A program made the translations under genes and the position numbers. DNA of 33,678 nucleotides from Falsigemmobacter faecalis (lineage in GTDB: Bacteria > Pseudomonadota > Alphaproteobacteria > Rhodobacterales > Rhodobacteraceae), in NCBI RefSeq assembly GCF_003863335.1, contig NZ_RRAZ01000037.1:1-33678 (forward strand), given 5' to 3'. Position 1 is the first letter of the stretch; each line of letters begins with the position of its first letter. The notes below the pieces were generated by a model, which saw only the letters and a program-made list of their open reading frames with translations, was not told the DNA's origin and made no database searches. Shown here one piece after another: positions 2,020 to 24,528 of the stretch.

Positions 2020-4278
<2,259 letters not shown>

Positions 4279-4285
4279 TCATAAA

Positions 4286-4327
4286 TTGAACTAGTATTTT
4301 CAAATAGATGTGATAAGCTTAGCTTAT
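4286..4327. promoter_or_regulatory. katG-oxyR divergent control region with two inverted repeats
   Basis: The 125-bp gap between the divergent katG and oxyR genes is AT-rich, unlike its surroundings. It contains TTGAA-N8-TTCAA (4286-4303), an inverted repeat of the T-N11-A layout typical of LysR-family sites. A second repeat, ATAAGCT-T-AGCTTAT (4313-4327), overlaps the oxyR start codon. Binding of OxyR is inferred from position and symmetry; the second repeat would suit autorepression. Neither site matches the full four-part E. coli OxyR consensus that I could reconstruct. Confidence 0.6.
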
Positions 4328-5237
4328 GATAACCCTGAAGCATCTGCGCTATTTCGCAGCCCTCGCCCAGCATCGCCACTTTCAGCGCGCCGCCGAGGCC
4401 TGCGCCATCAGCCAGCCCGCTTTATCGCTGCAGATCAAAGAGCTGGAGACCCTGCTCGGTGCGCCGCTGGTCGAACGCGGCAGCCGTCAGATTGGTCTGA
4501 CAGCCCTTGGTGAGGTCTTTGAAAAGCGCGCCCGGGGGATTTTGCTGGAGGTGTCAGAGCTTTCGGACCTCGCCCGCGCGGCCCAGGGCCGGATGCAGGG
4601 GACGCTGCGCCTTGGGATGATTTCAACGGTTGCGCCCTATCTCTTTCCCGCAGTGATCCGGCGGCTGCTGGACGAGATGCCCGATCTTGACCTGCGCCCG
4701 CGCGAAACCACCACCGACAAGCTGATTGAAGAGCTGACCGCAGGCCGCCTTGACGCCGCGGTGATGGCGCTGCCGGTCTCAGAACCCGGTCTGGAAGAGC
4801 ATTTCCTGTTTGAAGAGGAATTCCACCTCGTGCGGCCTGCGCAAGATGCGGGCGATCCGCTGCCCTTTCCCGGCCTGCTGCCGCCGGGCATGCGGCTTTT
4901 GCTGCTGGAGGAGGGGCACTGCTTCCGCGATCAGGCGCTTGGCTATTGCTCGATGCAAAATGACGTCGCCCCCGATATGCTGGAGGGGACGTCGCTGGCG
5001 ACGCTTGTGCAGATGGTGGAGGCCGGGATCGGCGTGACCCTGATCCCCGCCATGGCCATCGCGCGCGAAACCGCAGGCTCGGATGTCAGCGTCACCCGCC
5101 TGTCGCGGCCCCGCCCGGTGCGCCGCATCGGGATGATCTGGCGCAGCAGCAACCCCCTCTCGCAGCATCTGAGCGAGATCGCCAGCCTGATCCGCACCGA
5201 GCATGAGCGCCTGAGCGCAGGTCTTCCGCCCCGCTGA
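4326..5237 (+). CDS. oxyR: Hydrogen-peroxide sensor, LysR family OxyR
   Basis: LysR-type transcriptional regulator of the peroxide response, 303 residues. The N-terminal winged helix-turn-helix spans about residues 1-60 (HFQRAAEACAISQPALSLQI). The effector domain carries the OxyR redox signature GHCFRDQALGYC. Its two cysteines fall at residues 199 and 208, the same numbers and spacing as the peroxide-sensing disulfide of E. coli OxyR. This separates it from other LysR proteins. It is divergent from katG, its expected main target. No clear Shine-Dalgarno sequence precedes the ATG at 4326; the upstream bases form an inverted repeat instead. Confidence 0.95.
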   Translation: MITLKHLRYFAALAQHRHFQRAAEACAISQPALSLQIKELETLLGAPLVERGSRQIGLTALGEVFEKRARGILLEVSELSDLARAAQGRMQGTLRLGMISTVAPYLFPAVIRRLLDEMPDLDLRPRETTTDKLIEELTAGRLDAAVMALPVSEPGLEEHFLFEEEFHLVRPAQDAGDPLPFPGLLPPGMRLLLLEEGHCFRDQALGYCSMQNDVAPDMLEGTSLATLVQMVEAGIGVTLIPAMAIARETAGSDVSVTRLSRPRPVRRIGMIWRSSNPLSQHLSEIASLIRTEHERLSAGLPPR

Positions 5238-7117: not shown

Positions 7118-8626
7118 TCAGCCCTTGGTCACGCCTTCGAGACGGATCAGACCATCCGCATAGGGCTGAAAGCCCTGCACAGCGGTGTTGAAGCCCCAGA
7201 TCCAGGCCTGGTGATAAAGATAGACCAGCGGCAGCTCATCGTTCAGCACTTTGCGCGCGGCATCATACTGCACCTTGCGCAGCGCCGGATCGCTTTGCGC
7301 CCGGGCCGCCGCCAGCGCCTCATCCACAACCGCGTTTGAGAGCTTCGCGTCGTTCATGCCACCGCCGGTGACGACGAACTGGTTAAGGTTGGTGTCAGGA
7401 TCGACATAGCCCGACCAGCCGGTCAGCGTCGCCTCATAGCGGCCTTCCGCCTGCGCGGCGAGCATCGAGGCAAATTCAACCGCCTCAATCTTCACCTCAA
7501 TCCCGGCCTCTGCGACCATGGCCTGCAGCACCTGCGCCACCTGCAGGTTCACCTGGTTGTTCGGCACGGTCAGAGTGAAGCTGAAGCCCTCAAGACCCAC
7601 CGATTTAATCAGCTCACGCGCTTTGGCCAGATCGCGCTGCGGCACCGGGGTCCCGGCGTCATTCCAGAACGAGCCCGGCGCGAAGGGCTGGTTGCCGGGC
7701 GTATAAAGCCCCTCAAAGACCACCTGGTTCAGCGCCTCGCGGTCGATGGCATAAGACAGCGCCTGGCGCAGTTCTTTGTGCTGCGACAGCGGGTTATGCG
7801 CACCCGCGCCGGTGCCGTTGGCCAGGTTGACCGTCATACCCTGATAGCCGAGGCTCTGGGCCTTCACATGGGCCAGACGCGCATCCGAGGTGACGGTTGC
7901 CAGATCCGCCGGCGCGATCCGCTCGATCATATCGAGATCGCCCGAGCGCAGGTTGGCCAGACGCACGGTCGAATCCGGGATCGGCAGGAAGGTCACGGTG
8001 TCAAAGGTATATCCGACGGCGTTATAATAGCCGGCGTCTTTTTCCAGAACGATGCGGTCCTGGGCCACGCGCTCTTTGAACTTATAGGGGCCGACGCAGA
8101 CCGGATGTGCGCCGAAAGTCTCGCCCGACGCCTCAACGGCGGTGGGCGAGGTGATCACGCCCGCCCGCGCCGCAAGACGCGGGATCAGCGTGGCATCGGG
8201 CGCATTCAGCGTGAAAACCACCTCATGGCTGCCCTTCGCGGTGATCTCATTCACCGAAGAAAGCTCGCTTGCACGGCGGCTGCCCTGGGCGGTTTTCGCA
8301 CGCATGATGCTGTGCACCACCGCCGCCGCATCAAAGGGCGTGCCATCCTGGAAGCTCACGCCCTCGCGCAGCGTCAGGCTCAGCGACAGACCATCCTCCG
8401 AGAGCGTCCAGCCCGTCGCCAGCGCCGGAACCAGCTCCGAGGCCGCCGAAAAGCCCACCAGCTTATCGCACATCGAGGCCATGACGATCTCACCCACAAA
8501 GGTGCGCGAGAAAACCGGGTCCAGAACATCGGCGTCATCATTCAGACCGATGCGAAGATCCGCCGACAAAGCCGGGGTTGCGAGTGCCACTGAAAGCAGC
8601 AGCCCGCGCAGGAGCGTAGAAGTCAT
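7118..8626 (-). CDS. ABC transporter substrate-binding protein, oligopeptide/nickel type
   Basis: Periplasmic solute-binding protein of the SBP_bac_5 (DppA/OppA/NikA) family, 502 residues. A signal peptide is clear (SVALATPALSADLRIG, cleavage near residue 21). The family pattern follows: LDPVFSRTFVGEIVMASMCDKLVG near the N terminus, ALATGWTLSEDGLSLSLTLREGVSFQDGTPF, and AVDRE-like AIDREALNQVVFEG in the middle. No lipobox is present. It follows the acetamidase gene by 34 bp in the same direction and probably shares its transcript. No matching permease or ATPase of the Opp type is in the window, so it either works with a distant transporter or acts as a scavenging receptor. The ligand cannot be read from sequence. 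Confidence 0.88.
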   Translation of the reverse strand: MTSTLLRGLLLSVALATPALSADLRIGLNDDADVLDPVFSRTFVGEIVMASMCDKLVGFSAASELVPALATGWTLSEDGLSLSLTLREGVSFQDGTPFDAAAVVHSIMRAKTAQGSRRASELSSVNEITAKGSHEVVFTLNAPDATLIPRLAARAGVITSPTAVEASGETFGAHPVCVGPYKFKERVAQDRIVLEKDAGYYNAVGYTFDTVTFLPIPDSTVRLANLRSGDLDMIERIAPADLATVTSDARLAHVKAQSLGYQGMTVNLANGTGAGAHNPLSQHKELRQALSYAIDREALNQVVFEGLYTPGNQPFAPGSFWNDAGTPVPQRDLAKARELIKSVGLEGFSFTLTVPNNQVNLQVAQVLQAMVAEAGIEVKIEAVEFASMLAAQAEGRYEATLTGWSGYVDPDTNLNQFVVTGGGMNDAKLSNAVVDEALAAARAQSDPALRKVQYDAARKVLNDELPLVYLYHQAWIWGFNTAVQGFQPYADGLIRLEGVTKG

Positions 8627-8660: not shown

Positions 8661-9617
8661 TCAGCCGCGCTGCAGCAGGGATTTTTTCACGCGGCCATGG
8701 ATGCCTTTTTCGCCGTTGACCGATTGGGTCACCGCAAAATCGACCGCCATAGAGCAGAATTGATAGGCCTCACCCGGGGTGATGCCGCAGTGGCGCGAGA
8801 TCAGCGCAATCATCTGACGCAGCGCGATTTTCAGCGCCTGATCGAGGCTTTCATGAAAGCCCATGGTGATGAATTCATCCGCCGTTTCGGCCATCGGATA
8901 ATCGACCTGCAGCGCGCCCTTTTTGTGCAGCCCAAAGGTGAAAGTCCCGGTCAGTGAGGTCTCAAGCGCTGTGATGCAGACCTCGCCATCGCCCTGACAG
9001 CCGTGCCCGTCCCCGCAGGAGAACAGCCCCCCTTCGGCCTGCACCGGCAGAAAAAGCTTCGCGCCTTCGGTCAGCAGTTTCAGGTCAATATTGCCGCCAA
9101 AAACCCGCGGCTGCACCGAAGTGAGTTCCCCCCATTCCGGCGCAGGCGCCAGCCCCATGACCCCGAAGAAGGGCGACAGCGGCAGCACCGCGCCCCAGGG
9201 CAGACGGGCGGTTTTTGCCGCGCGGTCGATCGGGATCACATCAAGGTTCATCGCCGAAACCGGCAGCTCGCCCATCAGCGTGCCCGCGCTCGGGCGCAGC
9301 GCATTATAGCCCCAGTCCGCGCCCAGATCGATCTTCTCAATCGCGATCTCCAGCACATCGCCGGGCATCGCGCCGCGCACCGCGACCGGGCCGGTCAGCA
9401 GATGCGCCACCCGCGGCAGATCGGCATCCAGCACCGCGCGATGCGCCGCGCTGACCGTCCTGCCCGAGCCCGCTTTGGGCAGATGCATCTCGCGACCCGA
9501 GAAGGTCTCAATCCTCACCCGGGCACCGGGATCGACTTCCATGACCGGCGGCAGGTCAGACCAAAAGCGGCCCCAATGCACCGTAGACGGGGTGGCGGGC
9601 AGGAAAAGATCTGACAT
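8661..9617 (-). CDS. Acetamidase/formamidase family amidohydrolase
   Basis: Member of the FmdA/AmdA family, which hydrolyses small amides to ammonia and a carboxylic acid. The 318-residue length is typical. Hallmarks are FGGNIDLKLLTEGAKLFLPV and GGLFSCGDGHGCQGDGEV, the metal/substrate region of this family, and the N-terminal GPVAVRGAMPGDVLEI strand. There is no signal peptide, so the enzyme is cytoplasmic. An AGAGG ribosome binding site precedes the ATG. It lies between the monooxygenase operon and an oligopeptide-type binding protein, which suggests release of nitrogen or of an acyl group from an imported compound. Whether it removes an N-acetyl group in the upstream pathway is speculation. 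Confidence 0.85.
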   Translation of the reverse strand: MSDLFLPATPSTVHWGRFWSDLPPVMEVDPGARVRIETFSGREMHLPKAGSGRTVSAAHRAVLDADLPRVAHLLTGPVAVRGAMPGDVLEIAIEKIDLGADWGYNALRPSAGTLMGELPVSAMNLDVIPIDRAAKTARLPWGAVLPLSPFFGVMGLAPAPEWGELTSVQPRVFGGNIDLKLLTEGAKLFLPVQAEGGLFSCGDGHGCQGDGEVCITALETSLTGTFTFGLHKKGALQVDYPMAETADEFITMGFHESLDQALKIALRQMIALISRHCGITPGEAYQFCSMAVDFAVTQSVNGEKGIHGRVKKSLLQRG

Positions 9618-9818: not shown

Positions 9819-10799
9819 TCAGCGCAGCGGTGCAAAAAGTTTGACCGCATCGCGCAGAATCTGTCGATAATCCGCCGCTTCAAATTCATAGGGCAGCTCA
9901 AAGCGCAGATGGTTGCTCAGCGGCAGCACCGGATCGCGGGCCAGGGCCGCCAGGATCTCCTCGCTGTGGCCGACCAGATCGGGCAGAAACATCACCCGCC
10001 CCGGCCCGTTGGGCGCGCGCGTCCGCGCCAGCCGCGCATCGCGGTAGGCCCTGTAGCGCGCCGCCTGCTCCGGCGTGGCGCTGTCGGTCAGCAGGATCAC
10101 CCGACCCAGCCCAAGGCGCGGCCCGCCCGGACCCGCCCAGTCGCGGCGGTGGCTCTCGATCAACTGCCTTTGCGTGGTCAGAAAATCCTCGCTCCCCTCA
10201 GCCGTGATCACATTCCCGGTCAGCAGATGCCAGCCGTTCTGCGCCGCCCAGGTCGCCGAAGCGGTCGAGCCCGCGCCATACCAAAGCCGCTCTGTCAGAC
10301 CCGCCGCATGGGGCAGCACCCGCGGCACCTGGGCCCCGGCGGCATTGCCGCTTAAGGCCTGATCCGCCAGCGGCTCTGATCGCAAGGCCTGCGCCAGCAG
10401 CGCCGCCGTTTCATGCTTTGCCCCCGGCGCGCGCAGCGGCAAAAGCGGGCCCAGCAGATCGGCGAAAGCCGCCCCCCCGGCGCTGACGCCCACATTCAGC
10501 CGCCCGCCCGAGAGCACATCCACCGTGGCCAGATCTTCCGCCAGCCGCAAAGGCGTCTCATAGCCCAGCGGGATCACCCCCGTCCCAAGGCCAATGCGCG
10601 AGGTGCGCTGCGTGGCCGCCGCCAGAAAGGTCGCCGCCGAGGAGACCCCGCGCTCCAGATGCCGCTGGCGCACCCAGGCGCTGTCAAAGCCCAGCTCTTC
10701 CGCAAGGGTAAAGAGCGAAAGGGTCTCCTCCAGCCCCTGGCGCGGCGCGTCAAAACCGTAGTTGCCCGGGATCAGCAATGCGAAATGAGAAATCGCCAT
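9819..10799 (-). CDS. Luciferase-like FMN-dependent monooxygenase
   Basis: LLM-class flavin-dependent oxidoreductase, 326 residues, with the bacterial-luciferase TIM-barrel pattern. Features are the N-terminal barrel strand (HFALLIPGN), FTLAEELGFDSAWVRQRHLERG, RIGLGTGVIPLGYETPLRLAEDLATVDVLSGGRLNVGVSAGG, and WYGAGSTASATWAAQNGWHLL. These enzymes use reduced FMN from a separate reductase to oxygenate a small substrate, often cleaving a C-S or C-N bond. It starts only 3 bp after the upstream binding-protein gene and closes that operon, so it most likely oxidises the imported compound. It corresponds in position and family to YtmO (CmoO) of the B. subtilis S-alkylcysteine operon. No flavin reductase gene is adjacent; the flavoprotein at 15615-16244 is a possible but unproven partner. 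Confidence 0.87.
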   Translation of the reverse strand: MAISHFALLIPGNYGFDAPRQGLEETLSLFTLAEELGFDSAWVRQRHLERGVSSAATFLAAATQRTSRIGLGTGVIPLGYETPLRLAEDLATVDVLSGGRLNVGVSAGGAAFADLLGPLLPLRAPGAKHETAALLAQALRSEPLADQALSGNAAGAQVPRVLPHAAGLTERLWYGAGSTASATWAAQNGWHLLTGNVITAEGSEDFLTTQRQLIESHRRDWAGPGGPRLGLGRVILLTDSATPEQAARYRAYRDARLARTRAPNGPGRVMFLPDLVGHSEEILAALARDPVLPLSNHLRFELPYEFEAADYRQILRDAVKLFAPLR

Positions 10800-10802
10800 G
10801 GC

Positions 10803-11735
10803 TCAGAACTTCGGCAGGCCCGGCGGGTTGACGCGGGAGACCTCCAGCCCCTCATCACTGACCAGCCAGCGCGCCAGGGTGCGGGCATAAACCCCGTCCT
10901 TCAGCAGCCCATTGACCGCGATCGCCACCGGCTCTGCCAGACCCGAGCCCTTGCGGAAGGTCGCCGCCACATCCGATTTCTCCGGCCAACCGGCGGAAAG
11001 CACGCCCACTTTGCGGAAATCGCCATCCCGCTCGGCGATCAGCACCAGCTGCGCATGGGGCTGCACCATAACATCCACCCGCCCGGCGCGCAGCGCCAGC
11101 AGCTTGGTGCCCTCATCATCGTAGTAAACCAGCTCCGCAGGCGGCAATCCGGCCTCAAGGACCAGCTCATTCCATTTGCCTAAAATACGCTCCTGATTGG
11201 TGCCGACGCCGACCACGATCTTCAGACCCGAGATATCTTTCGGCTCTGCGATCTTTTGCACGGGGCTGTTGTTATGCACGAAAAACCCATGCAGGCCCTG
11301 ACGATAGGTGGCGAAATCGAATTTCTCTTTGCGCTCTTCCGTCACGCCCACATTCGAGAAAACCGCATCCACCTTGCCCGATTGCAGCGCCAGCGGCCAG
11401 TCGGCCCAGGTCACCGTCACGATCTCCAGCTCCAGGCCCAGACTTTCGGCGATCAGCGAGGCGATATCGGGATCCGCCCCCACCACGGTCGCGGTGTCAC
11501 TGGCATAGGTGGCAAGCGGCGGCCCCGAAGGATTGGTGCCGATGGTGAATTTCCCAGGGGTGACGAATTTAAACTCCTTCGGGATCGCGGCAATGGCCTC
11601 TGCATTGGCGCCGATATGCGCGCGGTCGGGCTGCTCGGGCGAGAGGTCAAAGGGCAGATCCTTCGCCCCCGCCGCCGACACCCCAAGGGCGGCCAGCGAG
11701 AGCGACAGAAGAAGGCGGCGGCTGAGAAAGCTCAT
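10803..11735 (-). CDS. Amino-acid ABC transporter substrate-binding protein (second of two)
   Basis: Periplasmic binding protein of the polar amino acid family (SBP_bac_3), 310 residues from the ATG at 11735. That start opens a clean signal peptide (SRRLLLSLSLAALGVSAAGA); an in-frame ATG 42 codons upstream would bury it and lies in the preceding gene, so it was rejected. Family features are KFTIGTNPSGPPLATYA, GADPDIASLIAESLGLELEIV, DAVFSNVGVTEERKEKFDFATY and GVGTNQE. It is a clear paralogue of the protein encoded just upstream: both have DLSPEQP after the signal, WADWPL, VTE(E/A)RKEKFDF and end with NPPGLP. Like TcyJ and TcyK, the two probably deliver related amino acids to one shared transporter. 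Confidence 0.9.
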   Translation of the reverse strand: MSFLSRRLLLSLSLAALGVSAAGAKDLPFDLSPEQPDRAHIGANAEAIAAIPKEFKFVTPGKFTIGTNPSGPPLATYASDTATVVGADPDIASLIAESLGLELEIVTVTWADWPLALQSGKVDAVFSNVGVTEERKEKFDFATYRQGLHGFFVHNNSPVQKIAEPKDISGLKIVVGVGTNQERILGKWNELVLEAGLPPAELVYYDDEGTKLLALRAGRVDVMVQPHAQLVLIAERDGDFRKVGVLSAGWPEKSDVAATFRKGSGLAEPVAIAVNGLLKDGVYARTLARWLVSDEGLEVSRVNPPGLPKF

Positions 11736-11794
11736 AAGATGATCCGATCTGAAAAGGTCAGACCCCGCCCGATCCCCGGGCGGAGCCGGGAAAG

Positions 11795-12721
11795 TTACTT
11801 CGCAGGCAGACCCGGCGGATTGATGCGGCTCTCTGAGATGGCCTCGGCATCCAGACCCCATTTGCCCAGCACCTTGCCATAGGTGCCATTGGCGATCTGC
11901 CCGTTCAGCGCCGCCGTCACCGCATCGGCCAGCCCCGCATCCTTCTTCGTCGCCACCGCGATCTCAGCGGTCAGCGGAAAGCCCCCCGACAGCGTGCCGA
12001 CCAGGCGAATATTGCCGTCCTTCGCCGCCTTGAAAGCCGAGGTCGCATTGGGTCCGAGGTAGAAATCAATCCGCCCCGATTCCAGCGCCAGGTCCTGCAC
12101 CACATCATCGTCGAAATAGAAGACTTCGGTCGGCGCCAGCCCTTCGGCCTTATTCTCTTCGATCCAGCGCAGCAGAATCTCTTCCTGGTTGGTCCCCGAG
12201 AAGACCGCGGCTTTCAGACCGGCAATCTGGCTGCGCTCGGTGATCTGCGTGACGGGGCTGTTTTTGGAGACATAAAACCCAAGAAGATCATTGCGATAGG
12301 TCGAGAAATCGAATTTCTCTTTGCGCGCCTCGGTGACGGTGATGTTGTGGATCACCGCATCATATTTGCCCGAAGCCAGCCCCAGCGGCCAGTCGGCCCA
12401 GGCCACGGCGATCAACTCCAGCTCAAGCCCGAGGCTGTCGGCCACGATCTGCGCCAGATCCGGCTCCCCGCCGACCGGGGTGCGGGTGTCGGTGGCATAG
12501 ACCGAAAACGGCAGACGATTGGGCACCGAGGCCACGGTCAGCTTGCCGGGGGTCACCCATTTGTAATTCTGCGGCAAAAGATCAATCGCGCCCTGGATCT
12601 TTTCAGCCCGGATGCGGCCGGGTTGTTCGGGCGAGAGGTCAATCCCCTCAAGGGCCAGCGCCGGAAGCGGCAGCAGAGCCGAGAGGGTCAGGGCGAGAAA
12701 GCTGCGACGAAGAAGTGACAT
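11795..12721 (-). CDS. Amino-acid ABC transporter substrate-binding protein (first of two)
   Basis: Second SBP_bac_3 protein, 308 residues. The ATG at 12721 is preceded by AAGGAA at good distance and opens a signal peptide (SFLALTLSALLPLPALA, cleavage near residue 24). The domain follows with GKLTVASVPNRLPFSVYATD, GGEPDLAQIVADSLGLELELIAVAWADWPLGL and ITVTEARKEKFDFSTY. It shares its architecture and C-terminal NPPGLP ending with the neighbouring paralogue, but differs in the ligand-pocket stretches (for example SGTNQEEILLRW and YLGPNATSAFK). The 59-bp gap to the downstream paralogue has no obvious terminator. The two look like an old tandem duplication with diverged ligand preference. Confidence 0.9.
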   Translation of the reverse strand: MSLLRRSFLALTLSALLPLPALALEGIDLSPEQPGRIRAEKIQGAIDLLPQNYKWVTPGKLTVASVPNRLPFSVYATDTRTPVGGEPDLAQIVADSLGLELELIAVAWADWPLGLASGKYDAVIHNITVTEARKEKFDFSTYRNDLLGFYVSKNSPVTQITERSQIAGLKAAVFSGTNQEEILLRWIEENKAEGLAPTEVFYFDDDVVQDLALESGRIDFYLGPNATSAFKAAKDGNIRLVGTLSGGFPLTAEIAVATKKDAGLADAVTAALNGQIANGTYGKVLGKWGLDAEAISESRINPPGLPAK

Positions 12722-12815
12722 GGGAATTTCCTTAAGATTTGAGTTGCCCTCTCCGGGCCGGTCCCGGCACATGCCGGAACCGGAGACTGCGGAGAGGCAG
12801 AAGGGGGGTAAGAGC

Positions 12816-14594
12816 TCAGTTCACACGGGCGAGAAAATCCACCGTTCGCTGGTGGCGGGGCGCGGTCAGGATCCGGGCGGGCGGCCCGCTTTCGACCACG
12901 CGGCCCTGCTCCATAAAGATGATGCGGTCGGCCACATCGCGGGCAAAGCCGATCTCATGGGTGACGATGATCAGCGTGATGCCCGATGCGGCAAGCTCTC
13001 GAATAACATTCAGAACCTCGCCCACCAGCTCGGGATCCAGCGCCGAGGTCGGCTCATCAAAGAGCAGCACTTTCGGCTTCAGCGCCAGGGTCCGCGCAAT
13101 CGCCACCCGCTGTTGCTGTCCGCCCGACAGCTGGCGCGGATAGGCATCGGCCTTCTCAGCCAGACCCACCCGGGCCAGCAGATCGCGTGCCAGCGCCTCA
13201 GCCTCAGCCCGGCCAAGGCCGCGCACCCGGATCGGCGCTTCGGTGATATTTTGCAGCACCGTCAGATGCGGAAAGAGGTTAAAGTTCTGAAACACCATGC
13301 CGACATCGGTGCGCCGCTTCAGGATCTCGCGCTCTTCCAACTCATAAAGCGTGTCGCCGTCGCGGCGATAGCCGATCAGCTCTCCGTCAATGGCAATGGT
13401 GCCCGCATCCACCCGCTCCAGATGGTTAATCGCGCGCAGCAGCGTCGATTTCCCCGAACCCGAAGGACCGATAATCGCCGTGACCGACCCCGGCGCAAAG
13501 CTCAGATCAATGTCTGAGAGCACCTGCAGCGTGCCAAAGCTTTTCGCCACACCACGGATTTCCACCGCCCCGCCCCGGGGCAGCCCCTCAAAACCGCGCG
13601 AGGTGACCGGCACAGTCTGCGCCTCTGCAACCACCGCCACCGGCTTTTCTGCCGGATGAAGCGGCACCAGACCGAGTTTGGCAAAGACCACCCGAAAGGC
13701 ATTCGGCGGCAGCGTGCGCAGCGCACCACGGGCATAGTGACGCTCAATGTGATACTGAATGACCGAGAGTACCGAGAGGATGATCAGATACCAGACGGTC
13801 GCGACCATCAGCAGCGGAATAACCTCAAGGTTGCGGCGGTAGATGATCTGAATGGTGTAAAACAGCTCCGGCAGCGCCAGGACATAGACCACCGAGGTCC
13901 CCTTCGCGAGACCAATGATCTCATTAAACGCCGTCGGCACGATCGAACGCATCGCCTGGGGCAGCACAATGCGCCGCGCCTGATGGCTTTTGGGCAGGCC
14001 AAGCGCCGCCGCCGCCTCATGCTGGCCCTGATCGACGCTGAGGATCCCCCCGCGGATCACCTCGGCCGAGAACGCCCCCAGATTCAGTGTCAGCCCCAGA
14101 ACGGCGGCCAGAAAGGGCGTCATCAGCTGCGTGGTGGACCAGCTGGCAAAGGTGATATCGGTAAAGGGCACGCCCAGAGCCACGGTCTCATAAAGATAGC
14201 CGAGGTTATTCAGGATCAACAGCAGCACAATCAGCGGCAGCGAACGAAAGAGCCAGATAAACCCCCAGGCCAGCCCCGCCAGCAGGGGCGAAGATGACAC
14301 CCGCGCCAGCGCCAGCACCGTGCCCAGCGTAAAGCCAAAAAGCGCCCCAAGTGCCGTCAGCAAAAGCGTGCGCCCCAGCCCCATCAGCACCGGCTCAGAG
14401 AAGAACCACTGCGCAAAGATGCCCCAGCCCCAGCGGGGATTGCCCAGAACCGATTGCAAAATCAGCCCCAGCACCACCACGGCGGCCACGGTGCCAAGCG
14501 TGCGCGCCCGGTGGCGCACCGGCACCACCTTCAGATGCCCCTCCGCCGCCGGGGTCGCCGCGATCGGCAGGCGGTCGAAATCGGTAACGCTCAT
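12816..14594 (-). CDS. Fused permease-ATPase of a polar amino acid ABC importer
   Basis: A 592-residue protein joining membrane and ATPase subunits that are separate in most amino acid importers. Residues about 35-300 form a HisM/GlnP-type permease with several hydrophobic spans and the EAA loop (EAAAALGLPKSHQARRIVLPQAMRSIVP). A proline/alanine-rich linker follows. Residues about 345-592 form the ATPase: Walker A GPSGSGKST (about 374-382), Q-loop VFQNFNLFPH, signature LSGGQQQR (about 490), Walker B VLLFDEPTSALDPE and switch His in VTHEIGF. All catalytic residues are intact. Its ATG overlaps the acetyltransferase stop (ATGA overlap, 14591-14594), and the two binding-protein genes follow. It stands in for TcyL, TcyM and TcyN; one fused gene would supply both permease copies as a homodimer. 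Confidence 0.93.
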   Translation of the reverse strand: MSVTDFDRLPIAATPAAEGHLKVVPVRHRARTLGTVAAVVVLGLILQSVLGNPRWGWGIFAQWFFSEPVLMGLGRTLLLTALGALFGFTLGTVLALARVSSSPLLAGLAWGFIWLFRSLPLIVLLLILNNLGYLYETVALGVPFTDITFASWSTTQLMTPFLAAVLGLTLNLGAFSAEVIRGGILSVDQGQHEAAAALGLPKSHQARRIVLPQAMRSIVPTAFNEIIGLAKGTSVVYVLALPELFYTIQIIYRRNLEVIPLLMVATVWYLIILSVLSVIQYHIERHYARGALRTLPPNAFRVVFAKLGLVPLHPAEKPVAVVAEAQTVPVTSRGFEGLPRGGAVEIRGVAKSFGTLQVLSDIDLSFAPGSVTAIIGPSGSGKSTLLRAINHLERVDAGTIAIDGELIGYRRDGDTLYELEEREILKRRTDVGMVFQNFNLFPHLTVLQNITEAPIRVRGLGRAEAEALARDLLARVGLAEKADAYPRQLSGGQQQRVAIARTLALKPKVLLFDEPTSALDPELVGEVLNVIRELAASGITLIIVTHEIGFARDVADRIIFMEQGRVVESGPPARILTAPRHQRTVDFLARVN

Positions 14595-15214
14595 GCCGCC
14601 ACCTCCGACTTGCGCGACGCGGTCTGTGCCTTACGCGCAGAGGCTGCAGCCGCCGCCGCTTCGGGCGTCGCGGCCGGGGCACGCAGCGGCGAATTCGGCG
14701 TCACACCGCGCAATGCCCCGATATGCTTCTCAAAAGGCAGCGTGGCGTAAAGCTCTCCCGGGATCGTCGGATCAAAGAGCGGCCGATAGCCAAGCGACAG
14801 ATACAGCTCACGCGCCTCGGGCTGCCGGAACCCGGTGGTCAGATAAACCCGGGTATAGCCCTGGGCCTCTGCCGCGCGTTCAAGCGCTTCGACGACGCGC
14901 TTTGCCAGACCCTGGCGGCGGAAGGCCGGATCGGCCCAGACCCGCTTTAACTCAGCGGTCCCGGCGTCATAAAACATGAACGCCCCGCCCGCGATCACGC
15001 GGCCCGCGCGCTCCATCAGCAAAAAGGCACCGCGCTGGCCTTCGGTAAAGGCCGCAGCCGGATAGCGGTAAAGCTCTGCCCGCGCACCCTCGCTGCTGAA
15101 AAGCGTGCCATAGCGGCTGTCGTATTCGCGGATCAGATCTTCCACCAGCGGCTTTGCGCGGGGATCATCGGGGGAGGTGACAAAAATACGGTCGGCGGTC
15201 TGAGCCTCGGTCAT
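14591..15214 (-). CDS. GNAT-family N-acetyltransferase
   Basis: Acetyl-CoA-dependent N-acetyltransferase, 207 residues. The GNAT core covers about residues 10-165: motif A is LKRVWADPAFRRQGLAKRVVEALERAAE, containing the acetyl-CoA loop RRQGLA, and GYTRVYLTTGFRQPEARELYLSLGYRPLF forms the C-terminal part of the fold. The last 30 or so residues are an Ala-rich tail of low complexity. It is the first gene of the leftward operon and is translationally coupled to the permease-ATPase by a 4-bp overlap. By position it matches YtmI (SnaA), which acetylates S-substituted cysteines before their oxidative cleavage. The substrate here is inferred from context only. Confidence 0.9.
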   Translation of the reverse strand: MTEAQTADRIFVTSPDDPRAKPLVEDLIREYDSRYGTLFSSEGARAELYRYPAAAFTEGQRGAFLLMERAGRVIAGGAFMFYDAGTAELKRVWADPAFRRQGLAKRVVEALERAAEAQGYTRVYLTTGFRQPEARELYLSLGYRPLFDPTIPGELYATLPFEKHIGALRGVTPNSPLRAPAATPEAAAAAASARKAQTASRKSEVAA

Positions 15215-15340
15215 GGCAAAAAGTCTCCGTCAGCGAAAGCGGCGGCGGCGCACTTTCGTCAGCAAGGGGGCGTGCAAAACCAGCCCTCTCAAAGGGGTCA
15301 GCGGCTCTGCGGATCAGGGGGGCGTGTTACGGCGGCGGGG
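15215..15340 (-). promoter_or_regulatory. Possible attenuator between leader peptide and operon
   Basis: The 126-nt transcribed spacer after the leader peptide has self-complementary stretches. On the minus strand, ACCCCT pairs with AGG and GGT across UUGAG with a small bulge, followed directly by UUUU (around 15265-15290). Nearer the gene, CGAAAG and CTTTCG form a second stem with a 13-nt loop. The arrangement fits transcription attenuation, but no complete terminator/antiterminator pair could be proven by eye. Confidence 0.4.
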
Positions 15341-15418
15341 TCAGACCGCGCACATTCGACACGAAGACCGACAACAGCCGGACCGGACGGCGGCGGGCAG
15401 GACAGCAAAAATCTGCAT
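15341..15418 (-). CDS. Cys-rich leader peptide, candidate cysteine-sensing uORF
   Basis: A 25-codon frame on the minus strand begins ATG at 15418 and ends TGA at 15341. It is preceded by AAAGGAG with an 8-nt gap, one of the best ribosome binding sites in the window. The peptide starts MQIFAVLP and ends in CCRSSCRMCAV, so four of its last eleven residues are cysteine. Regulatory leader peptides put several codons for the monitored amino acid near their end, so ribosome stalling at low Cys-tRNA could control the operon 126 nt downstream. That operon looks like a sulfur amino acid uptake and salvage system, which makes the cysteine content meaningful. Too short for standard gene finders. Translation and function are inferred. 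Confidence 0.66.
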   Translation of the reverse strand: MQIFAVLPAAVRSGCCRSSCRMCAV

Positions 15419-15440
15419 CAGCCAGTCTCCTTTAAACTGA

Positions 15441-15463
15441 GCCTGCACCCTTCCCGGGCAGGC
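15441..15463. promoter_or_regulatory. Inverted repeat upstream of the leader peptide
   Basis: GCCTGC-N11-GCAGGC lies just upstream of the leader ribosome binding site, in the stretch that should hold the operon promoter. It could be an operator; no matching regulator is identified. The rest of 15464-15614 is GC-rich with no gene seen. Confidence 0.35.
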
Positions 15464-15614
15464 GGCGATGCTTACACAATAGGGCGCGGGGCGGCGGAGT
15501 AAATGAAACGTCCCGGTCGATTTTCGCCCCCCGGAGAGCGAATTCTTCCCCCCGCCGCCCCGCCGCCAGAACAGCCGCCCCTTTGCCCCCCGCAGGCGTG
15601 ATTCGAAGCGGCAA

Positions 15615-16244
15615 TCAGTAAAGCGTGTCCCTCAGCCGTGCGGGCAGCGCCGCATCATAGGCCCGGCCGCCCAGTTCCCCTTCCGAAAGCGCCGCCAGAA
15701 TGGCCCCCGCCGAGGGCAGTGCGGCGCGCGGGATCTGCGCCCCCGCCTCCCAGAGTTTCGCGCGCAAAACCGCGCGGCTGCATTGGAAAAACACCTTGCT
15801 CACCGCGATCCGCACCACCACGCGCGGGCTTTGGCCGTTTTGCGCGAATGACGCACAAAGCGCCGGATCGGTGGTCACCTCGGCCCGCCCCGTCAGCCGC
15901 AGGGTCTCGCCCACACCAGGCACGATGAAAAGCAGCGCCACCCGCGGGTCGGTGACGATATTGCGCAGACTGTCGAGACGGTTGTTGCCGCGCCGGTCCG
16001 GCATCAGCACCTCCCGCGGATCGGTCACCCGCAAAAACCCCGGCCCATCGCCCCGCGGGCTCAGATCCGGCCCCTCCGGCCCTGCGGTGGCCAGCACCAC
16101 AAAGGGCGCGGCCTCAATGAAGGGGCGATAAAGCGGATGAATGTGATCGCATTCCTTCACGATCGAGCCACGCCCCGGCGCGTCGTAAAGCGCCTCCAGC
16201 GCCGCCAGACTGCGGATGACCGCGCCCTCGTTCCCCTCCGCCAT
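15615..16244 (-). CDS. Pyridoxamine 5'-phosphate oxidase-family flavoprotein
   Basis: FMN-binding split-barrel protein of the PNPOx-like superfamily, 209 residues, of the type often annotated as MSMEG_1061 family. The barrel strands are visible in IEAAPFVVLATAGPEGPDLSPRGDGPGFLRV, DRRGNNRLDSLRNIVTDPRVALLFIVPGVGETLRLTGRAEV and the flavin-contact region near VVRIAVSKVFFQCSRAVLRAKLW. Members bind FMN or F420 and have redox or unknown roles; true pyridoxine biosynthesis is unlikely. It lies upstream of the sulfur-type operon in the same direction, about 200 bp before the leader peptide, and 72 bp after the TetR gene. It could share a transcript with either. Confidence 0.85.
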   Translation of the reverse strand: MAEGNEGAVIRSLAALEALYDAPGRGSIVKECDHIHPLYRPFIEAAPFVVLATAGPEGPDLSPRGDGPGFLRVTDPREVLMPDRRGNNRLDSLRNIVTDPRVALLFIVPGVGETLRLTGRAEVTTDPALCASFAQNGQSPRVVVRIAVSKVFFQCSRAVLRAKLWEAGAQIPRAALPSAGAILAALSEGELGGRAYDAALPARLRDTLY

Positions 16245-23319: not shown

Positions 23320-24528
23320 ATGACCCGGGCAAAAACCGCACTGGACGAAATCCCTCGTGACCGCCTCACCGGCCCTTTGCGGAGGGGGGCGGTGAAGAAG
23401 CACGTAGCGGCGATCCATATCTCCGGCAAGCTGACGCTGCTGCAGCGAAAGCTGAGCAATGTTCTGTTGCTGAACGCTTATGATACCCTGACCTCGCAGA
23501 GCCGGCATCAGATTGATGCGCGCACGCTGTGCCTGATGATTGGCTACAACTCCAATGACATCGAGACGCTGAAGCTTGCGCTGCGGGGGTTGGCGGAGAC
23601 TGTGGCGGAATGGGATATGCTTGACAGCGAAGGGCAGCAGGAATGGGGTGTCTCGGCCCTTCTGTCCTTTGCGCGGCTGAAGGGGGGGATCTGTGAATAC
23701 GCTTACTCTCCTGCCCTGGCGGAGAAACTGCATGATCCTAAGGTGTTCGCGCTGATCAATCTGAATATCCAGCGCCGTTTTACCTCTGGCCACGCGCTGG
23801 CGCTTTATGAGAACTGCTACCGGTTTGTGCGGACAGGATCGACTGGCTGGTGGCCGATTGAGCTGTTTCGCAGACTTATGGGCGTGGCGGACAGTCCTTA
23901 TTATGATGAGTTCAAGCATCTGAACGCCAAGATTATCAAGCCTGCTGTTGCGGAGGTGAATAAAACCTCAAACATCGTGGTGACGCCGGAATTTCGGAAG
24001 ATGGGTCGGGCCGTGAACGATGTGCGCTTTCTGATTTCTGAGAACCCGCAGCTGGCGATCCTGGATCTCGATGACGGCGAGGGGCATCGGAACTCGGATA
24101 TCTATGCGCGGCTGCGGGGGCTTGGTGTGTCGGACCGGCTGGCGCGGCAGTGGATCCGCGAGCATGGAGAGACGGTGATGGGTCAGCGGCTGGATTTTGT
24201 TGCGGCTCAGGGGGATGTGCGAAATCCTGTGGGCTATCTGACCCGGGTTTTGCGCGATGACGGCCCGGAGGTTTCGCCGCGAAACCCTGCGCCCGCCGTG
24301 GCGCTGTCGGGCAGGGCGCGGCGGCTGGAGCGGATCCGGGATCTTGCGGCGGCGCGGACGCCGACTCAGCGGGATGCGGACCGGCGGCTGTTCATGGCGC
24401 GGCTGGAAGGGACGGCCAGGGATGACTTTGAAAAGCATGGCTGGATGTCCGCGCTGAACGTTAAGGCCATCGCAGCTTTTTGGGAGGAAGTCTCTCCCGG
24501 GGCCTTTGACGGGCTGGAGGCAGAGTGA
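23320..24528 (+). CDS. Replication initiator, Rep_3/RepB type
   Basis: Plasmid replication initiator, 402 residues. The first 250 residues look like the tandem winged-helix Rep_3 superfamily: AVHI-like AAIHISGKLTLLQRKLSNVLLLNAYDTL near the start, IDARTLCLMIGYNSNDIETLKLALRGLAETVAEW, a conserved middle block YSPALAEKLHDPKVFALINLNIQRRFTSGHALALYENCYRFV, and FKHLNAKIIKPAVAEVNKTSNIVV. The C-terminal 130 residues are an extension including an HTH-like part (LGVSDRLARQWIREHGETVM). In Rhodobacterales this corresponds to the RepB-type replicons that travel with parAB. The start at 23320 lies 55 bp past the last iteron copy. Function follows from the fold pattern and from the neighbouring iterons and parAB. 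Confidence 0.88.
   Translation: MTRAKTALDEIPRDRLTGPLRRGAVKKHVAAIHISGKLTLLQRKLSNVLLLNAYDTLTSQSRHQIDARTLCLMIGYNSNDIETLKLALRGLAETVAEWDMLDSEGQQEWGVSALLSFARLKGGICEYAYSPALAEKLHDPKVFALINLNIQRRFTSGHALALYENCYRFVRTGSTGWWPIELFRRLMGVADSPYYDEFKHLNAKIIKPAVAEVNKTSNIVVTPEFRKMGRAVNDVRFLISENPQLAILDLDDGEGHRNSDIYARLRGLGVSDRLARQWIREHGETVMGQRLDFVAAQGDVRNPVGYLTRVLRDDGPEVSPRNPAPAVALSGRARRLERIRDLAAARTPTQRDADRRLFMARLEGTARDDFEKHGWMSALNVKAIAAFWEEVSPGAFDGLEAE

Follow-up and report, generated by a model that had tools for sequence, protein, structure and literature searches.

The most probable reading of a short Cys-rich frame in Falsigemmobacter faecalis is that it constitutes the gene for a Cys-sensing leader peptide, placed ahead of an operon of GNAT acetyltransferase, ABC transporter and monooxygenase genes that would be governed by Cys-responsive attenuation; we hold this reading with somewhat more confidence than doubt. 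The DNA analysed, referred to here as the window, comprises 33,678 nucleotides (contig NZ_RRAZ01000037.1). In the proposed mechanism, scarcity of charged tRNA-Cys would make the ribosome pause at the Cys codons of the frame (15-16, 20 and 23), the pause would alter the pairing of the Cys-codon stretch, and this altered pairing would open GNAT and the genes behind it for expression.

The Leader Frame

The frame is found in a 400-nt gap between a PPOX-type flavoprotein gene and the GNAT gene, both encoded on the same strand as the leader. The relevant features are the following:

16244-15615, minus strand: PPOX-type flavoprotein gene, upstream border of the gap
15427..15433, minus strand: AAAGGAG Shine-Dalgarno (SD) site of the leader, 8 nt before its ATG
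15418-15341, minus strand: leader ORF of 25 codons plus stop, translated as MQIFAVLPAAVRSGCCRSSCRMCAV

The first-pass annotation had described a frame of 25 codons with AAAGGAG 8 nt upstream and a stop 126 nt before the acetyltransferase gene, and translation and coordinates confirmed each of these elements (the GNAT ATG lies at 15214). Its position, 15341-15418, was also correct; the strand, which had been left unstated, is the minus strand. The Cys codons 15, 16, 20 and 23 are TGT, TGT, TGT and TGC, so that TGT accounts for three of the four, yet the operon genes and PPOX together use TGC 11 times and TGT twice. The arrangement found, namely an SD-led short frame with clustered Cys codons ahead of genes with a probable sulfur role, is that of a Cys-codon leader peptide.

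Such a frame exceeds chance expectation. Among 20,000 dinucleotide shuffles of the 400-nt gap, a short frame with SD and ATG appeared in 707, one with at least three Cys in 45, and one with at least four in 9. In 400 kb of the F. faecalis genome, both strands included, there were 94 SD-ATG frames of 10-40 codons, three of them with at least four Cys.

Conservation in Falsigemmobacter intermedius

An ortholog, MQNFAVLPAAASSGCCRSSCRMCGC followed by a stop, is found at the same place in F. intermedius (locus L004). In it, the start, SD, frame and stop are retained together with the four Cys codons, and codon 25 provides a fifth Cys. Identity between both species amounts to 70 of 78 positions in the leader ORF, against 234 of 329 in the remaining gap (binomial 7e-5, Fisher 3e-4), and falls to only 24 of 44 directly past the stop; the region containing the leader SD (15437-15419) is identical at 18 of 19 positions. 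Counting identical runs from 14 nt up, the gap contains five, all on the minus strand:

15512-15497: 16 nt
15433-15412: 22 nt, covering SD and start of the leader
15410-15388: 23 nt
15383-15349: 35 nt, with all Cys codons
15243-15223: 21 nt, with the GNAT SD

The 35-nt run begins at the third position of codon 12 and ends at the first position of codon 24; codons 13-23 encode the same peptide in both species and the last two residues differ. Five leader codons differ between the two species, all of them changing the amino acid and none synonymous. At fourfold sites, identity was 71/108 in GNAT, 89/122 in PPOX and 268/365 in the ABC gene, that is, a quarter to a third of these sites differ. As the leader lacks synonymous differences, its nucleotides, and not just the peptide, seem to be under constraint, and the Cys-codon block would appear to be constrained at the nucleotide level. 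A genus-wide DNA search placed the leader in two of five Falsigemmobacter genomes, F. faecalis included, the second being G394, taken as F. intermedius. With two carrier genomes in one genus, there is no covariation to use.

Distribution among More Distant Relatives

Conservation of the leader in relatives within Rhodobacterales had been anticipated in the first-pass annotation; this expectation held for one species, F. intermedius, with all four Cys, and found no support beyond it. The one-genome-per-species collection provided 36 GNAT loci, of which L039, a weak partial match, was covered by one of the frame listings. No leader ortholog was found at the 34 more distant loci (L005-L038), a count in which GNAT was assumed to be the first gene at the loci outside the group with an M20 amidohydrolase gene, and in which L013 offered just 43 nt of upstream sequence. 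Other frames containing Cys do occur at these loci: SD-led ones with at least two Cys at L006, L014, L019, L023 (two starts, one frame) and L036 (four Cys), and others at loci such as L017 (within the M20 gene, at 4535-4645), L023, L027 and L032. Because none is common to two loci, they were left uncounted as orthologs. The SD-led GTG frame at L006, from Paracoccus caeni, encodes MKMCCHDKPELTAAP, with tandem Cys, 92 nt before the M20 gene, with no counterpart seen at the other loci.

A search with the 25-residue peptide yielded no convincing relative in 389 further genomes from the order, a sample in which the genus was represented by one additional genome (G234) and F. intermedius/G394 was not listed. 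Some match at E ≤ 1 was obtained in 261 of 390 genomes, F. faecalis included; among the matches listed, that of F. faecalis itself scored 5.7e-12 and the next, with an internal stop, 0.0067. In 29 further loci from this search (L105-L133), none combined ATG, an SD-like site and tandem Cys. The nearest were L106 (ATG frame, loose SD-like 4-mer, three separate Cys), L109 (TTG frame, loose SD-like 4-mer, GCCRLSC) and L107, L108 and L125 (at least two Cys, loose SD-like 4-mer). Since a frame of at least 150 codons overlaps the match in 27 of the 29, these candidates were rejected as chance frames within or against genes. The degenerate DNA pattern CCRxxCRxxC proved uninformative, as it matched 276 of 394 genomes of the family and gave many control matches too. 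No match to the leader region was found in the plasmid collection searched. Its presence in a single genus, with no ortholog found at the 34 more distant loci, indicates that the leader is young or fast-changing.

The contig itself probably represents all or part of a plasmid, given the genes for replication and partition that it carries:

23320-24528: Rep3-type replication initiator
22802-21405, minus strand: ParA-like gene
21439-20324, minus strand: gene with a ParB_N match just under the Pfam cut-off

The contig ends do not overlap. Elsewhere in it, a minus-strand gene with a peroxidase-family match (2020-4200) lies beside a plus-strand LysR-type regulator gene (4326-5237).

The Operon behind the Leader

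The following minus-strand genes are found behind the leader:

14591..15214: GNAT acetyltransferase, first gene past the leader (family match)
12816..14594: amino-acid ABC transporter, permease-ATPase fusion (family match)
11795..12772: family 3 solute-binding protein (family match)
10803..11861: family 3 solute-binding protein, overlapping the 11795..12772 gene as listed; its start codon is uncertain
9819..10799: luciferase-like monooxygenase, LLM (family match)
8661..9617: FmdA/AmdA-type amidase (family match)
7118..8626: family 5 solute-binding protein, whose nearest NCBIfam model, GsiB, is below cut-off

The ATPase part of the ABC fusion is nearest to the EhuA and cystine TcyN models, both below cut-off. 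The proposal that this is a sulfur-type uptake and salvage operon gained support from family matches and from synteny. The ABC fusion lies directly behind GNAT in 13 of 35 loci (L004-L038), and binding-protein genes follow it in all 13. In 12 of these 13, all except L004, an M20 amidohydrolase gene (similar to that of L009) immediately precedes GNAT; among these 12, an NtaA/DmoA-family FMN monooxygenase gene precedes the M20 gene in 10, and an LLM gene is found within the fetched stretch in nine, as it also is in L004. In the remaining 22 loci, the NtaA-type gene is more distant or displaced in 16, and the M20 gene occurs in none. Both the window and F. intermedius lack the M20 and NtaA-type front genes at GNAT, which comes first, with the leader ahead of it. 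Five M20 relatives (45-52% identity) are encoded elsewhere in the F. faecalis genome.

The scm, ytn and yha clusters of Bacillus subtilis act on S-(2-succino)cysteine and S-alkylcysteine through acetylation, an FMN monooxygenase and deacetylation, with the genes for acetyltransferase, monooxygenase and deacetylase grouped together (accessible part of PMC12757645). It is the M20 and NtaA-type genes before GNAT in the relatives, as in B. subtilis, that make the sulfur reading better founded than it was from the window alone. Compared with that salvage-operon set, the window contains an acetyltransferase, a transporter, an LLM monooxygenase and an amidase of a different family (FmdA/AmdA), whereas the M20 gene is not in the window. 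Judged from gene families and gene order, the operon probably serves the salvage of S-modified cysteine, by uptake, acetylation, oxidative cleavage and deacylation.

Candidate RNA Elements and Possible Pairing of the Cys-Codon Stretch

The region ahead of GNAT would contain the following elements, all on the minus strand:

15497..15526: conserved box CGAAAATCGACCGGGACGTTTCATTTACTC (28 of 30 positions shared with F. intermedius), candidate promoter or operator
15476..15503: TTTACT-16-TATTGT, a weak promoter candidate (4/6 + 4/6) recognised by eye
15441..15463: 5' hairpin by the inferred transcript start, in both species (z -2.0; 16 of 400 column shuffles as good)
15430-15421: leader SD segment GGAGACUGGC
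15363..15372: Cys-codon stretch GUCGGUCUUC, which could base-pair with the leader SD segment
15369-15361: GGUCUUCGU, overlapping the Cys-codon stretch, which could base-pair with the GNAT SD segment
15284..15296: hairpin CCCTTTGAGAGGG followed by CTGGTTTTGC, weakly terminator-like and at chance level
15234..15258: hairpin CGAAAG...CUUUCG immediately before the GNAT SD, in both species (z -2.0; 14 of 400 as good)
15222..15230: GNAT SD segment ACGGAGACU (GGAG at 15228-15225), in the 21-nt identical run

The box lies roughly 80-110 nt before the leader start. The candidate promoter reads TTTACT / TATTCT in F. intermedius; a promoter scan of 15000-15800 found none. By eye, the promoter-like pair together with the box would place the transcript start near 15470. 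The hairpins at the 5' end and before the GNAT SD are modestly supported by two-species folding, being two of the seven regions tested.

The Cys-codon stretch may form contiguous helices over GGAG, with 10 pairs at the leader SD and nine at the GNAT SD. Both helices appeared together in 209 of 20,000 synonymous recodings and in 61 of 20,000 plain shuffles, in a test that was post hoc: the energy test came first and failed, and the contiguous-helix test, which favours pairing, came later, when the helices had already been noticed. For the GNAT SD, helices of 9 pairs arose in 1539 of 20,000 plain shuffles, and one of nine control SD cores reached nine pairs. The total duplex energy between the Cys stretch and the GNAT SD was ordinary, being equalled in 708 of 5000 recodings for the window and 1080 of 5000 for F. 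intermedius. The predicted probability that the GNAT SD is paired to the Cys stretch was approximately 0.89 in F. intermedius and 0.06 in the window.

Ribosome masking was also modelled. In F. intermedius, a ribosome over codons 19-23 would raise GNAT SD accessibility from 0.01 to 0.30-0.34, but one placed on the tandem codons 15-16 would hardly open it (0.05-0.07). For the window, masking at codons 15-16 gave 0.29-0.30, compared to 0.30 with no ribosome, and a rise from 0.30 to 0.39-0.40 was predicted at codons 22-23 only. With the ribosome on the stop codon, the predicted values were 0.08 in the window and 0.01 in F. intermedius, the latter the same as with no ribosome. Pairing of the Cys codons with both SDs is, in these models, a post hoc hint at translational control.

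Alternative Explanations

Several other explanations for the frame were weighed. That it arose by chance inside a conserved promoter region is very improbable. The F. faecalis genome does hold three SD-led frames with at least four Cys in the 400 kb examined, but frame and SD are highly conserved and conservation drops directly past the stop, and few shuffles reproduced the frame (9/20,000, as given above). The conserved stretch might instead be an RNA element, such as the target of a small RNA or of an RNA-binding protein, with the frame incidental or weakly translated. The constraint at the nucleotide level, with zero synonymous change, speaks for this explanation; however, a strong SD at the right distance, the ATG, the frame and the stop are all retained, no Rfam family was found in the leader region at the gathering threshold, and the folding of the leader RNA does not surpass that of shuffled sequences (z +1.39; -0.2 for the whole-UTR alignment), so that we regard it as unlikely. 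The same folding result also counts against Cys-responsive attenuation, as does the restriction of the leader to two genomes of one genus. Less likely still, the product could be a small protein with a function of its own, in which CC-x3-C-x2-C would bind a metal or a thiol rather than serve to sense translation. Its four Cys are close together and codons 13-23 are peptide-identical in both species, but the fact that all five differing codons are nonsynonymous runs counter to ordinary constraint on a protein, the two final residues are not shared, and the product has 25 residues only and no NCBIfam match.

Within Cys-responsive attenuation itself, the classical form, in which stalling at the Cys codons would prevent a terminator from forming between leader and GNAT, takes the smaller share and is held tentatively, at rather low probability. 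It is favoured by the small hairpin followed by CTGGTTTTGC at 15296-15284, with a hairpin ahead of GGTTTTG at the corresponding position in F. intermedius, and by uORFC-8-2, a Cys-codon element from the same order that ends in a U run consistent with a terminator (accessible part of PMC8632094). Against it, the terminator scan gave one terminator-like site versus 0.8 expected, the two-species fold of the region was no better than shuffled columns (z +0.6), and the U run falls within a stem in the minimum-energy fold of either species. Given the lack of a convincing terminator and the near-invariance of the GNAT SD block, translational control through freeing of the GNAT SD is slightly favoured as the output of attenuation, although this is uncertain. 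In its most elaborate form, which we consider speculative and somewhat less probable than the classical one, the Cys-codon stretch would act as an anti-Shine-Dalgarno element for two sites, the leader SD and that of the acetyltransferase gene, and the second site would become accessible once a ribosome slows over the later Cys codons, with no terminator involved. This would be a cysteine-sensing translational switch, arisen in a genus where the front genes of the salvage operon (monooxygenase and deacetylase) are missing.

Comparison with Known Cysteine Leaders

The first-pass annotation knew of no leader described at such a locus. This was borne out insofar as no Cys leader before a salvage operon was found among the titles and abstract openings listed from the open-access literature, and the accessible part of the report on the B. 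subtilis clusters makes no mention of one (PMC12757645). It needs qualifying insofar as Cys-codon leaders were already known in Rhodobacterales before cysS: uORFC-8-2 comprises 145 examples, with tandem Cys codons usually at 14-15 and a terminator-like end, for which sensing of charged tRNA-Cys through stalled ribosomes has been proposed (accessible part of PMC8632094). The window leader shares the order, the tandem codons (15/16) and possibly the placement of the Cys codons, which in uORFC-8-2 lie in the first stem. It differs in that, as described in the accessible part of that source, uORFC-8-2 occurs exclusively before cysS and ends terminator-like (PMC8632094), whereas here the first gene is GNAT and there is no clear terminator; the cysS leader peptides, such as MNKRCTLICCIIPC, also differ from that of the window.

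A model (R1), built here from eight cysS leaders, with only eight pairs and distinct from the published uORFC-8-2 model, gave no match in the window or L004 up to E 10. Applied to nine cysS loci, it matched six at 7.9e-8 or better, two of which had been used in building it and four of which (L173, L190, L191 and L192) had not; L181 scored 0.08, and L182 and L185 gave no match. By eye, a clear tandem-Cys leader precedes cysS at 14 of 30 loci, with L181 and L193 doubtful, and the cysS genes of F. faecalis and F. intermedius (L182 and L185) have no leader of the uORFC-8-2 kind. Two other Falsigemmobacter genomes (L191 and L192) match the cysS-leader model, and both carriers of the window leader do not. 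By this small-model test, the window leader would work like uORFC-8-2 but is not a member of it. The mycobacterial Cys leader set of Canestrari (2020; cited in PMC9094748) is, going by the title, reportedly leaderless; the window frame has an SD.

The actinobacterial cys and cbs genes offer another likeness, with short frames whose runs of Cys codons lie close to the stop, sulfur genes next and no obvious terminator, although these leaders belong to another phylum and precede cys/cbs genes rather than salvage operons (accessible part of PMC1262725). Placement before a salvage operon is not among these known cases. With no clear terminator, one may ask whether control is exerted at translation, and the invariant 35-nt Cys-codon block provides a small, directly testable target. 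While the known Cys-codon leaders precede a tRNA synthetase gene or cys/cbs genes, the one proposed here, if true, would tie sulfur scavenging directly to the charging of tRNA-Cys in Rhodobacterales.
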